A DNA stretch of 64,000 nt from Pseudomonas laurentiana (GTDB taxonomy: Bacteria; Pseudomonadota; Gammaproteobacteria; Pseudomonadales; Pseudomonadaceae), in the NCBI RefSeq assembly GCF_014648275.1, contig NZ_BMQU01000002.1:62001-126000 (forward strand). The letters run 5' to 3'. The position numbers and the translations under genes were made by a program. Positions within the stretch are counted from its first letter, which is position 1. Every line of letters starts with the position of its first letter. Of the stretch, positions 18,844-60,780 are shown one piece after another. The notes beneath the pieces were generated by a model. The model saw only the letters and a program-made list of their open reading frames with translations. It made no database searches and was not told the origin of the DNA.

Positions 18844-19995
18844 TTACTGCTCAGGGCCATCGTCGTCCAGTAGCTGAGTGGCGCGGCTGCCCAGCAACGA
18901 ACCTGCCTGGAAATAGCCCATTACCGTGCTGACACTGCGGTGCTCGGTCATGGCCATCACTTCACCCAACGGCACCCCCTGGCGACCGGCCTCTGTGACG
19001 AAGCCCGATCGCAGGCTATGGGCGGCCCAGTCTCCTGCAAGCCCGGCCATTTGGGCGCGACGCTGGACGATCCTGGCAACCTGGTCCGCGCATAGCCCAG
19101 TGGTACCCACCTTGCCGCCTTTGTACAGACGCCGGAACAGCGGTCCGTCGTGTGCGGGTGCAGCAGTCAGCCAGGCTTCCAGCGCGTGTGCCGCCGGCCC
19201 GCGAAGTGGTTTCTCGCGGCGGATTCCACCGGTGTCGGTCTTGGTCGCACCGAGGGCGTAGAGCCACGTGTCGGCATCCAGTCGGCGCACATCACCCACT
19301 TGCAGGCTTACCACCTCGGAACGGCGGCGGCCACCACCGCTCCACGCCAGCAGGAGAAGTGCCCGGTCACGCAGACCCCGTACCCCGTCATTGCACGTGG
19401 CGAGCATGGCCTGCAGGGGTTCGAGCACCGCTGCGGTCTTTTTACGTACGTTGGCGCCCTGGCGGGTCTGGGCCTTACGTGCTTCGCGCATCAGGGTTTT
19501 CAGCGCTGGCGCCTCGGTCGGGCTGTCCCATCCGCGCAGGCTGTGCCACTTCCCCAGCACCGCCAGGCGATGGCTGACCGTGTTGTAAGCCAATGGCCCA
19601 AGCCTGGCCTTGACGCGCGCGCTTACCAAGGCGACATCCAGTGCCGGCGGTAGCAGGTGGGTCCAGCGCCCCTCGTCCACTGGCCGGGCCAGGTGATCAA
19701 GCACGAACTGTACGGCGATGGTGGGCGGCAATGCGGTGTCGCCCAGCGCCAGGCCATAGCGCAGTTGCAGCCAGGCGGACCAGTAGGCGAGGGCACTGCG
19801 GTAGCTCCGTACCGTGTTGGCCGCTGTGCCCGCGGCGATGAACGCCGCCGCTGCTTCCTGCGCACTCAGTGCCAGGCAATGGGGGTCTTGGGCGGTTTCA
19901 TCAATCGGGTACAACTGATCTGTAATATTTATTACGTGCAACGTATTATTATTCCAGTATGTAAAAAATAACGTCGGATAACATTTTATTATCAT
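18844..19995 (-). CDS. Tyrosine recombinase/integrase
   Basis: About 383 residues with a core-binding domain (AANTVRSYRSALAYWSAWLQ) and a C-terminal catalytic domain. The catalytic set is visible: arginine in GGGRRRSEVVSLQVGDVRR, lysine in ALGATKTDTGGI, HxxR in AAHSLRSGFV, histidine in TEHRSVSTVMGYF and the tyrosine five residues after it. There is no nearby attachment site or phage gene, so this is an orphan recombinase. The start is uncertain: ATG 19995 has a weak ribosome site, and the first ~45 residues look unlike family members. Divergent from a KfrA-like gene with about 25 bases between starts. Confidence 0.88.
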   Translation of the reverse strand: MIIKCYPTLFFTYWNNNTLHVINITDQLYPIDETAQDPHCLALSAQEAAAAFIAAGTAANTVRSYRSALAYWSAWLQLRYGLALGDTALPPTIAVQFVLDHLARPVDEGRWTHLLPPALDVALVSARVKARLGPLAYNTVSHRLAVLGKWHSLRGWDSPTEAPALKTLMREARKAQTRQGANVRKKTAAVLEPLQAMLATCNDGVRGLRDRALLLLAWSGGGRRRSEVVSLQVGDVRRLDADTWLYALGATKTDTGGIRREKPLRGPAAHALEAWLTAAPAHDGPLFRRLYKGGKVGTTGLCADQVARIVQRRAQMAGLAGDWAAHSLRSGFVTEAGRQGVPLGEVMAMTEHRSVSTVMGYFQAGSLLGSRATQLLDDDGPEQ

Positions 19996-20019
19996 ACCTA
20001 ATTGCAAAGGGAGCAGGTG

Positions 20020-55092: not shown

Positions 55093-55659
55093 TCAGTTGG
55101 CGGCCCCATGCCGCAACACTTCAATGCAAAACGCCGACTCGTAAGGAGGGACGTTGCATTCCACAATATCAGTAGCCGCAACTTGCAGATGCACTCCGAC
55201 AATGTCGGCATGAATCGGTTGCTGACAGACATGTCGATCGACCAACACCGCCGTGTAAACCCGACGAGCCCCCAATTGCGCCAAGTACGCACACGTACGC
55301 AGGAGCGAATGGCCTTCAAACAGCACGTCATCGACAACAAGCAGGGTGCTGTTGGAGAGGTCCAGCGCACCCAAAAGCGGATTTTCGGTCAATTGCGTGC
55401 GGGTATGCAGCACTTTGAGGTCATCGGCATAACGTTTGACCTTGAGCGGGTAAAGAGGTAAATCCGGCAAACCGGTCTGACGTGAAAGGTGTTGCTGTAG
55501 TCGTTGTGCCAGCGGTTCGCCCCGGCGCTGGATACCAATCAGTACGGCATGAGCGGGTGGTAACAGTGCCGCAGCCTGTCGCGCCATCGCCTGAAGTACC
55601 GAATCCAGCTCATCGTTCTCATACAAACGCACCCTTTGACCCACAGGTGTAATCGGCAT
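55093..55659 (-). CDS. PyrR-like phosphoribosyltransferase
   Basis: About 188 residues starting MPITPVGQRVRLYENDELDS. The PRPP-binding site is VVDDVLFEGHSLLRT and the fold matches PyrR/uracil phosphoribosyltransferases. In Pseudomonas, pyrR usually lies just before pyrB; here it is alone next to an exporter operon. ATG 55659 is chosen because GTGAGAG lies just before, over an upstream start at 55776. Regulation of pyrimidine genes cannot be assumed for this orphan copy. Confidence 0.85.
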   Translation of the reverse strand: MPITPVGQRVRLYENDELDSVLQAMARQAAALLPPAHAVLIGIQRRGEPLAQRLQQHLSRQTGLPDLPLYPLKVKRYADDLKVLHTRTQLTENPLLGALDLSNSTLLVVDDVLFEGHSLLRTCAYLAQLGARRVYTAVLVDRHVCQQPIHADIVGVHLQVAATDIVECNVPPYESAFCIEVLRHGAAN

Positions 55660-55768
55660 GGCACTCTCACTTTGAGCGTAGATAGATTGATCATAGCGCA
55701 AGGAACTGTAGTGGCGATTTTCGTGCGGTAAGGGCAGGGGAAGAACGCCACAGGATTTTATAAATAAG

Positions 55769-55800
55769 TAACTCAACTAAATAGACATTTAGTTGAGTTA
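55769..55800. repeat. 14-bp perfect inverted repeat
   Basis: TAACTCAACTAAAT and ATTTAGTTGAGTTA around AGAC. It lies about 110 bases upstream of the PyrR-like start and is followed on the + strand by TAGTCTTTTTG, so it could be an operator or a terminator-like hairpin. Confidence 0.65.
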
Positions 55801-56034
55801 TAGTCTTTTTGTATATAGAAACAGGTTAATGCATCAGATGCGCTAGGGGTAGCCTATACATGCGCGTCATTTTTCAAGCAAGTACGGCATCATTTGATCG
55901 CGTGCCAGAAACACGACTAATCGGTTACAAACCACAAATCAACGAAAACAGCATGCTCTGAATCTGGTACCCAAGCACTGAATGAGCACGAGCGAAAGGA
56001 CTGTTGCAACCAAACTAAGACCTGAATCACAACA

Positions 56035-56271
56035 TCATCCAGGATGTACCGGAAGCTGCAACTTGCTGGCAACATTTTGGCTGACATAAATGCCCAAGCC
56101 AACGCTACCAGATCGCGCATTGGGCTGAGCAAGCAAGAAAAAAGGCTTGTGCGTTATCGCAATGTATTCACGAACGCTCGTTATTCCCGGGAGGTCCGGT
56201 TGCCGATCGGTTCGACTATGAAGACAAACTGGTCGATGTCCCGCACATGCTGATCGGCAATGTTTCAACAA
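56035..56271 (-). pseudogene. Possible histidine-kinase C-terminal remnant
   Basis: A 78-codon frame on the minus strand contains HKPFFLLAQPNARSG followed by SVGLGIYVSQNVASKL, resembling the F box (PFF) and G2 box (GxGLGLxxS) of a histidine kinase ATPase domain. The frame opens without the N-box or kinase H box and ends abruptly. The similarity is by eye only and short, so this is a weak call; the part before PFF does not look like a kinase. Confidence 0.25.
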
Positions 56272-56408
56272 ATGGACCGCCGTGATCCGTTGAACGTTCG
56301 CCTAGGAATCTCACAGAAGGAATTCCTGCTGGAGTCCAGCAGAGAGCCAAAGCTGTTGTGAGCCATGCTGAAAAGCAGCCTGCCATGGGTCTGAGGCCTC
56401 AATACAAA

Positions 56409-56436
56409 CTTACTCATAATGTATATTATGTTAAAT
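56409..56436 (+). other. dif: dif site (XerC/XerD chromosome resolution site)
   Basis: The stretch from 56415 to 56436 (CATAATGTATATTATG then TTAAAT) is identical to the corresponding 22 bases of the E. coli dif site, covering the inner XerC arm, the six-base centre and the XerD arm. The outer six bases of the XerC arm (CTTACT) differ from the usual GGTGCG/GATTCG. This identifies the chromosome dimer resolution site, or a dif-like copy, and so the replication terminus. Confidence 0.85.
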
Positions 56437-56880
56437 TATGTGTCAGGAAAGGATGGCCGACCTTTGTCCATTTCCACTAACCCCCTAACCCCCGGTCGCT
56501 TTTCCACAAAACCCCGTTTCCTAGCAAACCCGGCCACGGACTTCCGAGATTGGCCGATCAACCCCAACTGGAGAATTTTCCAAGGCAACCGTGCCGCTGA
56601 TTCCTCCGAGGGAATCGAAAAGAACGTGTGGAAACGCGAGATTCGATGCGTTACCCAGTTCATGGATTTCTACCTAAAGGACGTGTCAGCTAAACGGGAC
56701 AACGTGGCCTCCGAAAAGCTCGAATCTTTATTCAGTTAATCGACAGCTCACCCGCATCACATTTCCGATTTCCAAGTACCATCGTCGGACTCTTCAAATC
56801 ATTGCCACACATGCCCCTTACACGAGCCATGACATGAGCAAAGCCAGCAGGTGTAATGACACAGGGCAAGTGCTGGTGCG

Positions 56881-57660
56881 TTAGAAGGCAGGCACAACAT
56901 CGCCGTGATAGCGCTCAAGGATGAACTTCTTAACTTCGGGGGAATTAAGCAAAGCGCCGAGTTTTAGTACCGCCGGGGCGTTCGCCTGATCGCGACGTAC
57001 ATACAGGTAATTGGCGTATGGTGACTCCGAGCTTTCGATAAACAGAGCATCCTTGTGAGGTTCAAGCTTTGCTTCCAACGCATAGTTGGCTTTGATCAAT
57101 GCCAAGTCGACCTGGTTAAGCACGCGCGGCAACATGGCCGCCTCTAGCTCCTGAAATTTCAGATGTTTGGGGTTGCTGACGATGTCGAGGCGCGTCGCCA
57201 TGATGTTGTCGGGATCTTTAAGGGTGATCAAGCCTTGCTTGGCGATCAACAGCAGTGCACGACCGGAGTTGGTCGGATCGTTGGGGATTGCGATGGTAGC
57301 GCCATCCTTGAGCTCACTGATGGATTTGATCTTCTTCGAGTAGGCACCGAAGGGTTCGACGTGCACGGCGACAATTGGCACCTGATCGCTGCTTGGGCGG
57401 TCTTTTTTGTACGCCTCGTAGTACGGCTTGCTCTGGAAGTAATTGGCGTCCAGCAAGCCTTCATCTGTCTGCCGATCTGGCTGGATATAGTCAGAGAAGA
57501 CTTTAACATCCAGCGTTACCCCCTCCTTGGCCAGCTCAGGTTTGAGAAATTCCAGGATCTCGGCATGGGGCACAGGCACCACTGCGATTTTCAGGGTTTC
57601 GGCATAGGCAGAACCCATGGCAGTAACCAGCAGTGCAACGGAGAGAGCGACACGTTTCAC
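56881..57660 (-). CDS. MetQ/NlpA-type substrate-binding protein
   Basis: About 259 residues with signal peptide KRVALSVALLVTAMGSAYA and the NLPA domain (LKIAVVPVPHAEILEFLKPE, VFSDYIQPDRQTDEGLLDAN, IAIPNDPTNSGRALLL, KANYALEA). The family binds methionine or related amino acids for an ABC importer, but no permease or ATPase gene is adjacent, so it would serve a remote transporter. GTG 57660 overlaps the solA-like stop as GTGA, so the two are coupled. Confidence 0.88.
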   Translation of the reverse strand: MKRVALSVALLVTAMGSAYAETLKIAVVPVPHAEILEFLKPELAKEGVTLDVKVFSDYIQPDRQTDEGLLDANYFQSKPYYEAYKKDRPSSDQVPIVAVHVEPFGAYSKKIKSISELKDGATIAIPNDPTNSGRALLLIAKQGLITLKDPDNIMATRLDIVSNPKHLKFQELEAAMLPRVLNQVDLALIKANYALEAKLEPHKDALFIESSESPYANYLYVRRDQANAPAVLKLGALLNSPEVKKFILERYHGDVVPAF

Positions 57661-59460: not shown

Positions 59461-60780
59461 TCAATGAACCCCTTGCATTGCAACATCGACCGCCTCGATA
59501 AGAATCTCTGCATGCTCTTTCGTAAACGCCAATAGCGGTCGTATCTTGAGCACGTTTTCGAGCGGGCCGGCGGCACTGATCAGCACCCCATGTTCACGCA
59601 TTGAGTTGACGACCTTGCGAGCCTGTTCGGCTGCTGGTCGCTTCGTCGCACGGTCAGTGACGAGCTCAACACCGAGGAACATGCCAGCCCCCCTGACGTC
59701 ACCGATCATTTCATGGCGCTCCGCAAGCTTTGTCAGGCCATCCAGCAGATAACCGCCAATGTCATGCGATCTCTGCTGCAGATGTTCTTCCTGGATGACG
59801 TCCAGAACAGCTTGGCCTGCGGCACACGAGACGGGGTTGCCTCCAAACGTATTGAAGTAGCGCATGTTCCTTCCGAAGTCATCAACTACCTCAGAGCGTC
59901 CAACGATACCGGCAATGGGCTGACCATTACCCATGGGCTTACCGAGCGTGACAATATCCGGACGCACGTTATGCCTCGAAAAACCCCACATGTTCAGACC
60001 GGTACGCGCAAAGCCTGGCTGTACCTCATCTGCGATGTACAGCATTCCTTCTGCCTGGGCCAATGCAACACCTTCAGCGAGGAAACCAGCCGGCCCGGGC
60101 AGGACACCGTCGCTGGAGAAGATGCCATCCAGCAAAATAGCCGCAGGACGGATACCGTGCGCGTTCAAGTCATCGATCGCGGCACGTACGTCTGCGGCGA
60201 AAGTCGACGCCACGTTTTCGGCCCCCAGACGGTAAGCGTCAGGTGCGCGAACGGTACGGACATGTTCCGGGAGCACCATGCCGCGACCGAGCGACGGCGA
60301 AAGCTCGGCGATGTCTCCAGTTACACCGTGGTAGGCAAATTGGGTGATGATGACGCCGGTACCGCCTGTGTACTGCTTGGCGATCCGAAGCGCGAGGTCA
60401 TTCGCTTCACTACCGGTGCAGGTGAACATGACTCGATCCAAGTCACCAGAGAATGTGCCCAACAGTTGTTCTGCATAGTCGAGAATGCCCTCTTGCAGGT
60501 AGCGGGTGTGCGTGTTCAGCAGAAGCGACTGCCGATACATTGCCTCAACCACTCGGGGATGGCAGTGACCGATGGACGCGACGTTGTTGTAGGCATCCAG
60601 ATAACGACGGCCCTGCTCATCGTAGAGCCAAACGCCCTCCCCTCGAACGGTATGGAGCGGTCGTTCGTAGAAAAGACGGTACGCCGGACCCAAAAGACGC
60701 TCGCGGCGCTCAATCAAGCGTCGTTCCGTTTCCGAAAGCCGTGTTGCGTCCTCTGAAGTGAAACCGTTGATCATGCTCAT
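59461..60780 (-). CDS. Class III aminotransferase-fold phospho-lyase-like enzyme
   Basis: About 439 residues. PLP-lysine is in VTLGKPMGNGQPIAGI and other signatures are MFTCTGSEANDLALRI and EVQPGFARTG. The GKPMGNG form is that of AGXT2L-type enzymes (ethanolamine-phosphate and 5-phosphohydroxylysine phospho-lyases) rather than omega-aminotransferases. It is coupled by ATGA to the kinase gene before it; a kinase plus phospho-lyase is the known hydroxylysine breakdown arrangement, so that or a similar amino-alcohol is the inferred substrate. ATG 60780 is chosen for the overlap. Confidence 0.85.
   Translation of the reverse strand: MSMINGFTSEDATRLSETERRLIERRERLLGPAYRLFYERPLHTVRGEGVWLYDEQGRRYLDAYNNVASIGHCHPRVVEAMYRQSLLLNTHTRYLQEGILDYAEQLLGTFSGDLDRVMFTCTGSEANDLALRIAKQYTGGTGVIITQFAYHGVTGDIAELSPSLGRGMVLPEHVRTVRAPDAYRLGAENVASTFAADVRAAIDDLNAHGIRPAAILLDGIFSSDGVLPGPAGFLAEGVALAQAEGMLYIADEVQPGFARTGLNMWGFSRHNVRPDIVTLGKPMGNGQPIAGIVGRSEVVDDFGRNMRYFNTFGGNPVSCAAGQAVLDVIQEEHLQQRSHDIGGYLLDGLTKLAERHEMIGDVRGAGMFLGVELVTDRATKRPAAEQARKVVNSMREHGVLISAAGPLENVLKIRPLLAFTKEHAEILIEAVDVAMQGVH

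Follow-up and report, generated by a model that had tools for sequence, protein, structure and literature searches.

One of the closest described systems to the site around which this analysis turns is chromosome dimer resolution by XerCD at dif, with which it shares a single 28-bp motif of 11-6-11 layout at the switch of GC skew and KOPS polarity. CTX-type inoviruses and other Xer-integrated mobile elements (IMEX) use the host XerCD at dif, and the rox/Dre and loxP/Cre systems exemplify symmetric sites, with an anatomy of 14-4-14 (or 13-8-13). Single-recombinase Xer systems (XerS/difSL, XerH/difH, and XerA; PMC5357621) combine a recombinase carrying a complete catalytic set with a near-symmetric terminus site of about 28-32 bp that adjoins the recombinase gene, and they take the place of XerCD/dif. 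Here, we analyzed a 64,000-nucleotide stretch of the Pseudomonas laurentiana genome (the window, by which we mean the whole stretch), which holds dif and, ~0.64 kb from it, a second, palindromic site that an earlier, sequence-only reading of this DNA had overlooked. The dif site is already known in Pseudomonas; a second recombinase/site pair beside it is apparently undescribed. No description turned up in searches of the open-access literature (title and abstract level, preprints excluded) on inovirus attachment in Pseudomonas, on the letters of the motif, on an additional Xer recombinase, or on palindromes close to dif, and prior work may exist. We tentatively propose that many Pseudomonas have two dimer-resolution systems at the terminus, XerCD/dif and a plasmid-derived pair of a third recombinase (TR3) and a symmetric site ~0.7 kb off in the same FtsK convergence zone, the latter pair being parasitized by integrase-less filamentous phages; taken as a whole, we consider this reading possible, if slightly on the doubtful side.

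dif and the replication terminus

The dif site of the window is composed as follows.
56409-56436, + strand: dif, 28-mer CTTACTCATAATGTATATTATGTTAAAT
56409-56419, + strand: XerC arm of dif, CTTACTCATAA
56420-56425, + strand: center of dif, TGTATA (6 bp)
56426-56436, + strand: XerD arm of dif, TTATGTTAAAT

The 22-base exact match to the core and XerD arm that had been claimed at 56415-56436 was confirmed on the + strand. With an approximate dif pattern, 56409-56436 was the sole hit in the window (2 mismatches), against a background of 0.00 expected in 100 dinucleotide-preserving shuffles. A genome-wide check for further dif-like copies in the draft assembly (5,209,936 bases in 223 contigs) found none besides this site, the 22-mer of core and XerD arm having one match at up to three mismatches and the reversed 22-mer, used as a control, having none at the same threshold. 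Across the genus, the dif core was matched (up to two mismatches) in 222 of 249 genomes, in single copy except for one genome with two. The genome also encodes proteins that we take, from their sequence likeness, to be XerC (L279) and XerD (L278). With its 28-bp motif, its single copy in the draft, its location at the switch of KOPS polarity and GC skew, and the presence of XerC and XerD genes, 56409-56436 is the chromosomal XerCD site dif, ordinary and well supported, and XerCD/FtsK-dependent recombination is its predicted function. The 22-base core is the one that a list in PMC2731167 gives for the dif of P. aeruginosa PAO1.

The polarity of KOPS and the GC skew were followed along contig C2 (392,557 bases), on which dif occupies 118,409-118,436. 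KOPS sites (GGGNAGGG) were 17 forward and 0 reverse to the left of dif and 5 forward and 27 reverse to its right. The polarity split that fits best accommodates 44 of the 49 sites and falls in a 4.9-kb gap, from -694 to +4209, that contains dif and is bounded by the following sites.
55732-55739, + strand: last left-hand KOPS directed to dif, GGGCAGGG
60635-60642, - strand: first KOPS right of dif, closing the convergence gap, GGGNAGGG on the reverse strand

Among the comparison patterns, GGGANGGG showed a partial bias (10/1 left and 7/12 right of dif), which is what the skew alone would give, and GGGAAGG showed little (8/7 left and 5/9 right). Cumulative GC skew on C2 peaked at contig position 102,481, on a plateau at 90-120 kb, and fell thereafter; checked around 56.4 kb of the window, this puts dif on the plateau, ~16 kb from the maximum. 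Together, the sole dif copy, the KOPS switch, the GC-skew maximum, and the conservation of the core in the genus support the claim, made from the letters alone, that the terminus lies in the window. An excerpt of PMC6199493 reports for PAO1-UW a skew switch within 15 kb of dif, yet replication ending elsewhere; by terminus, we therefore mean here the terminus defined by dif and skew and not a measured meeting point of forks.

The sole feature of this dif that is unusual for the genus is the T at position 6 of its XerC arm. When dif was compared across 109 relatives, out of 222 genomes with a core match, the core was shared and this T was the only oddity: positions 1, 2, and 4 of the arm vary freely, position 3 is T in 107 of the 109, position 5 is C in every one, and at position 6 G predominates (104), followed by A (4) and T (1). 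Over 399 genus genomes, 12 sites with an otherwise matching core, that of the window included, have a base other than G at position 6 (T in 3), in a count confined to the non-G sites. In other genera, from which 80 of 103 dif stretches were considered, T is frequent among the position-6 non-G sites listed, for example, in the ATTACT of a Glaciecola (L079). The statement that CTTACT, the outer part of the arm, is unlike the forms known from gammaproteobacteria therefore needs correction, the only rare base being the T at position 6. As for the two origins that the sequence-only reading had offered, that of a local dif form fits the variable arm seen across the 109 relatives, and that of a Xer-integrated mobile element is left unsupported by a draft with no second dif. 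We read CTTACT as drift in the less conserved half of dif and not as the trace of an integrated element. That an element of the IMEX type brought dif itself seems to us exceedingly unlikely: the rarity of the T and the gene remnant that adjoins dif would suit such an origin, but the hallmark of an IMEX is an element between two dif copies and the draft has one (up to three mismatches), located at the KOPS switch, and further bases of the XerC arm are also variable across the genus.

A palindrome beside dif

The second site was first noticed as a recurrent short match at 55769-55802 when the surroundings of dif were compared with those of relatives.
55769-55800, no strand assigned: palindromic Xer-type site of 32 bp, TAACTCAACTAAAT-AGAC-ATTTAGTTGAGTTA, with 14-bp arms and a 4-bp center

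As judged from its sequence, this palindrome has the anatomy of a tyrosine-recombinase site, with a symmetric 14-4-14 layout like that of rox/Dre and loxP/Cre. It lies 638 bp from dif, center to center, on the side of the XerC arm, and it is unique in the 5.2-Mb draft at up to three mismatches. Both the palindrome and dif fall inside the KOPS convergence gap, and the KOPS at 55732-55739 sits outside the palindrome. On a weight matrix built from 67 sites (consensus TAACTMAACTAAATRRYYATTTAGTTKAGTTA), the palindrome of the window scores 58 bits and the runner-up position in the 392-kb contig -5.7.

A scan of 110 dif loci (window included), covering 1-1.5 kb on each side of dif in most and using the matrix derived from these same loci, returned a palindrome of more than 20 bits in 68, the best copy being on the XerC side in every one of these. 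The offset from dif has a median of -726 bp and an interquartile range of -805 to -682, with three palindromes at about -83. No palindrome was found in the 1-1.5 kb scanned on either side in the other 42 loci, six of which have a distant copy, up to -22.8 kb away (G004, G005, G015, G044, G045, and G052). Searched through whole genomes at up to two mismatches, the palindrome is present, usually as a single copy, in 64 of 99 genus genomes, and its reversed control in 0 of 99. Of these 64 genomes, 45 were compared with dif by coordinates, both sites being on one contig in 43; the palindrome is on the XerC side in all 43, within 3 kb of dif in 41 and at -3.5 and -22.8 kb in the remaining two.

The palindrome mostly has different neighbor genes in different loci. 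No ORF family near it is common to more than 3 of 21 stretches (the window and 20 from 17 genomes, five of those without dif), which ties the palindrome to dif and not to one gene. The intervals between palindrome and dif match another over more than half their length in 45 of 65 cases, being alike within subgroups, and 10 of the 65, that of the window among them, match no other. In the window, the palindrome sits upstream of a phosphoribosyltransferase gene; that it might be the operator of one conserved neighbor was rejected on account of the turnover of neighbors between loci. The XerCD enzymes were also considered as its recombinase and thought unlikely, the window dif scoring -11.5 on the palindrome matrix versus 58 for the palindrome. 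Positions at dif are among the top ones of the contig on that matrix, and most loci that lack a palindrome have dif as their highest-scoring hit, which suggests that the two sites are distantly alike. One gene family of 152-185 aa, presumably cupin-like, directly adjoins the palindrome in three loci (L256, L263, and L264).

TR3, plasmids, and inoviruses

The genome has ten matches to PF00589, nine of them above the cut-off; two are XerD and XerC. A third Xer-like recombinase, TR3 (L280, ~304 aa), is encoded on contig C3. Counterparts 79-88% identical were found in four of five other genomes searched, and one of 81% in the fifth (G017) in a later search. The catalytic set of TR3, R-K-H-R-H-Y, is complete, aligning with that of E. 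coli XerD and being invariant in 18 aligned orthologs, among which mean column identity is 89%. TR3 scores well under the NCBIfam cut-offs for XerC and XerD (122.7 versus 335 bits and 102.7 versus 330). As far as can be seen by eye, nothing in its C-terminal tail corresponds to the XerD residues reported to contact FtsK; PMC5357621 describes these residues and also XerS, which is without them yet requires FtsK. TR3 is present in 68 of 99 genus genomes, one copy each (with an internal TGA in G067 and partial in G075), and the copies in the 67 other genomes are 75-92% identical to that of the window genome, XerD in the same genomes being 86-94% identical. A dif match is found in 30 of the 31 genomes without TR3, so a second system would be dispensable for the genus. 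In a sample of 218 genomes from the family, TR3 occurs in 21, from 3 of 19 genera, one of the two further genera having a single match at 89% and the other three matches at 35-37%. A search of 50,697 phage records gave no match to TR3 (E up to 1e-20).

The palindrome and TR3 occur together. Both are present in 62 of the 99 genomes and neither in 29; two have the palindrome without TR3 (G035 and G092), and six have TR3 without a palindrome at up to two mismatches (G002, G036, G046, G072, G083, and G088, with a weaker copy at -698 in G046, L184). The Fisher p of 7e-17 for this co-occurrence ignores kinship, the genomes being related and not 99 independent events. On a midpoint-rooted tree of XerD DNA only, covering 90 of the 99 genomes and without support values, one clade of 15 has neither palindrome nor TR3, and the other 75 genomes comprise 55 with both, 12 with neither, 6 with TR3 only, and 2 with the palindrome only; outside the 15-genome clade, palindrome and TR3 are missing together at three or more points of the tree. 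G035 and G092 group with genomes missing both, as expected if TR3 is lost first and the palindrome then decays. All seven genomes with more than one palindrome (G011, G021, G024, G051, G059, G094, and G096) have TR3. Among the 45 TR3 genomes with a known dif, gene and site share a contig in 35, and TR3 is on the XerC side of dif, as is the palindrome, in 31 of these 35, at a median distance of 39 kb (one at 1.6 Mb); in the window genome, with TR3 on C3 and dif on C2, and in nine more, they are on separate contigs.

A further tyrosine recombinase gene of the window is given as context and is not proposed to act on the palindrome.
18844-20007, - strand: tyrosine recombinase gene, 387 aa, sporadic in the genus

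Its product, which we take to be Cre-like, was rejected as the enzyme of the palindrome, the gene being in 12 of 99 genomes versus 64 of 99 for the palindrome. In most of these 12, the gene shares a contig with dif or the palindrome; in G011 and G051, it lies between two palindromes, and it may mark an island using the second site. L254_6 of G032, encoded on the right-hand side of dif and classed as a tyrosine recombinase by visual inspection of its motifs, was likewise rejected as the enzyme, being sporadic (8 of 59 genomes).

Relatives of TR3 are found on 1,770 plasmid records, all below 60% identity, the best among the matches listed reaching 38-40%. Five plasmids were examined for an upstream site. 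Two of these come from Pseudomonas, pQBR55 and a plasmid of P. frederiksbergensis, and both have a block of conserved sequence 83-84 bp upstream of the gene for the TR3 relative. This block shares 21 and 22 of 32 bases with the window palindrome, and the matrix of chromosomal sites ranks its location first of 8,886 positions in both plasmids, scoring it at 15.0 and 16.9 bits where the runners-up have -25.7 and -17.8 (41 and 35 bits lower). The recombinases of the two are 94% identical and therefore count as one line of evidence, not two. On plasmids of Kosakonia, Enterobacter, and Vibrio, a looser pattern, derived from the Pseudomonas pair, picks out a similar site 88-111 bp upstream but also hits 46, 5, and 17 of 200 shuffles; the chromosomal matrix ranks these three sites only 10th, 3rd, and 19th, and they lend weak support to the pairing.

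Seven viral contigs carry the palindrome exactly as patterned. All seven match inovirus Zot and secretin and six match a Rep query, and in all seven, no more than ~60 bases separate the end of the secretin match from the start of a palindrome. None of the seven has a match to TR3, and a Pfam search of frames from three of them (10 from L364, 8 from L361, and 1 from L367) gave no recombinase. One contig (L367) has two palindromes 9.9 kb apart with inovirus genes between them. On two others (L362 and L366), dif is 82 and 674 bp from the palindrome, center to center, with the palindrome on the XerC side as usual, and these contigs look like prophages beside the host dif. Among the genus genomes, G024 has an inovirus between two palindromes 9.3 kb apart, the dif-proximal one at -821 (L261), and G059 has tandem inovirus copies, each with a palindrome, the last copy being apparently truncated before the host palindrome, so that the phage array apparently lacks a clean end on it. 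The inoviruses that carry the palindrome are, as far as their sequences indicate, apparently without an integrase. The co-occurrence across genomes, the sites on the Pseudomonas plasmids, and the palindrome-bearing inoviruses argue that TR3 acts on the palindrome as a second Xer-type pair beside dif, which we regard as likely.

Possible roles of the palindrome and the surroundings of dif

In the explanation that we propose, TR3, as a third chromosomal tyrosine recombinase, would have the palindrome as its recombination site; binding, cleavage, and recombination of this site are its predicted activities. Enzyme and site would descend from a module for plasmid multimer resolution that the chromosome acquired next to dif. 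Where FtsK translocation converges and brings two sister sites together, a TR3 homotetramer would recombine them as an auxiliary means of resolving chromosome dimers, and filamentous phages would integrate via TR3 as CTX-type phages do via XerCD at dif. The location of the palindrome inside the KOPS convergence gap (KOPS at 55732-55739, palindrome at 55769-55800, dif at 56409-56436) fits a role in dimer resolution, and we rate such a role for TR3 as conceivable, falling just short of probable.

Like the single-recombinase Xer systems, TR3 is one Xer-like recombinase, with a complete catalytic set, proposed for a near-symmetric terminus site. Unlike them, it is additional to XerCD/dif, all being present in the genome, and does not replace it, and its gene usually lies kilobases from its site (TR3 to dif, median 39 kb in 35 genomes); a site adjoining the gene is well supported for two of the plasmid relatives and weakly for the other three. 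With the plasmid multimer-resolution recombinases of the ResD/rfsF kind, which are presumably like TR3, it has in common relatives on plasmids and, in two Pseudomonas plasmids, a similar site just upstream of the gene, whereas TR3 itself is chromosomal and its site, beside dif, is mostly unlinked from the gene. The phages with the palindrome resemble CTX-type inoviruses and other IMEX in being filamentous, in having no integrase found so far, in carrying a copy of the host site, and in apparently integrating at the terminus, but the site that they use is the palindrome next to dif, for which the host would supply TR3 and not XerCD. In contrast to the rox/Dre and loxP/Cre recombinases, TR3 is Xer-like in length and sequence, and the Cre-like gene of the window, being sporadic, does not track the palindrome.

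Other explanations leave recombination out. The palindrome might be a transcription-factor operator of a neighboring gene, with only an ordinary dif nearby, and an AT-rich symmetric 14-4-14 palindrome upstream of a phosphoribosyltransferase gene, as in the window, would also suit a homodimeric regulator; this becomes very unlikely when adjoining genes differ between loci while the place beside dif is kept, when the palindrome is usually single-copy and tracks a recombinase gene across genomes, and when a similar site stands upstream of TR3 relatives on two Pseudomonas plasmids and inoviruses carry the palindrome themselves. We give just as little credence to a terminus-organizing site, a functional analog of matS/MatP that would be bound and not recombined. 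The link to a recombinase and the use by phages argue against it, as does the single copy in the window genome and most others, where many sites across Ter would be expected of such an analog: there is one site in 5.2 Mb (up to three mismatches) and no other hit above 2 bits in 392 kb. In its favor, the palindrome keeps to the terminus, and an excerpt of PMC6199493 reports that no MatP-like system was found in P. aeruginosa.

A different alternative accepts TR3 and the palindrome as a real recombination pair and regards them as selfish, or as the relic of a plasmid or island that had inserted close to dif; chance or phage traffic would have maintained them, and they would play no part in chromosome segregation. 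The plasmid relatives of TR3, the 31 of 99 genomes without TR3 (30 of them with a dif match), the inoviruses carrying the palindrome, and the somewhat lower conservation of TR3 than of XerD in the same genomes are all consistent with this. On the other hand, TR3 is still 75-92% identical in 67 other genomes, with 89% mean column identity among 18 orthologs, and a narrow distance between palindrome and dif is kept while neighbor genes turn over; we hold a selfish or relic pair to be unlikely, though a good deal less so than an operator or a matS-like site. If the proposed auxiliary dimer-resolution system is real, it bears on chromosome separation at the Pseudomonas terminus, where P. aeruginosa is reported in that excerpt to be without a MatP-like system (PMC6199493). 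It also predicts phages hitch-hiking on a host recombinase other than XerCD, and it would represent a plasmid maintenance module turned chromosomal and put a compact symmetric recombinase/site pair on offer.

The description of the dif surroundings as a 1.2-kb AT-rich region holds relative to the window, the region 55777-56880 having 48.5% GC versus 57.8% for the whole window and the six lowest-GC segments of 1.2 kb (100-base steps) all lying inside 55301-57000; in absolute terms, it does not. The ten frames of the gap around dif had zero Pfam matches at E up to 1, and a conserved protein in this gap was rejected, the two PHROGs matches (E 0.14-0.16) being at chance level. One ORF overlaps dif.
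56419-56739, + strand: ORF of 106 aa, starting inside dif, probable gene remnant

A search limited to the collected dif loci gave this ORF a weak similarity (29% over 72 aa, E 9e-4) to a fast-evolving gene that some relatives have immediately right of dif, and the ORF is probably what is left of a member of that gene family. Members of the family are found near dif in several relatives (L261, L262, L254, L183, L236, L224, and L009), immediately to its right where checked, and the family is probably distantly related to tyrosine recombinases; the two members tested had no match in Pfam or NCBIfam. In L254, a member stands next to an apparent canonical tyrosine recombinase, which suggests degenerate recombinases, the window retaining a remnant only.

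Bases flanking dif are also conserved, by up to 1.2 bits, in 109 Pseudomonas dif loci: AAAT ~35 bases to the left (56371-56374), ATA just left (56402-56404), and A-GTRT just right (56438-56443), which may be a genus-specific extension of dif or the mark of an accessory factor. Eleven dif sites, mostly from Thiobacillus records (L072, L076, L081, L084, L086, L089, L099, L116, L117, L126, and L128), agree fully in their left flank, gacccgataaTATGCA, but not in their right flanks, a pattern that repeated integration of elements on the XerD side would give. A dif core and XerD arm of the gammaproteobacterial type also occur in distant phyla (L054, L104, and L122 from Atribacteria/Caldatribacterium and L080 from a Bacteroidia MAG), where convergence, transfer, or contamination might account for them.
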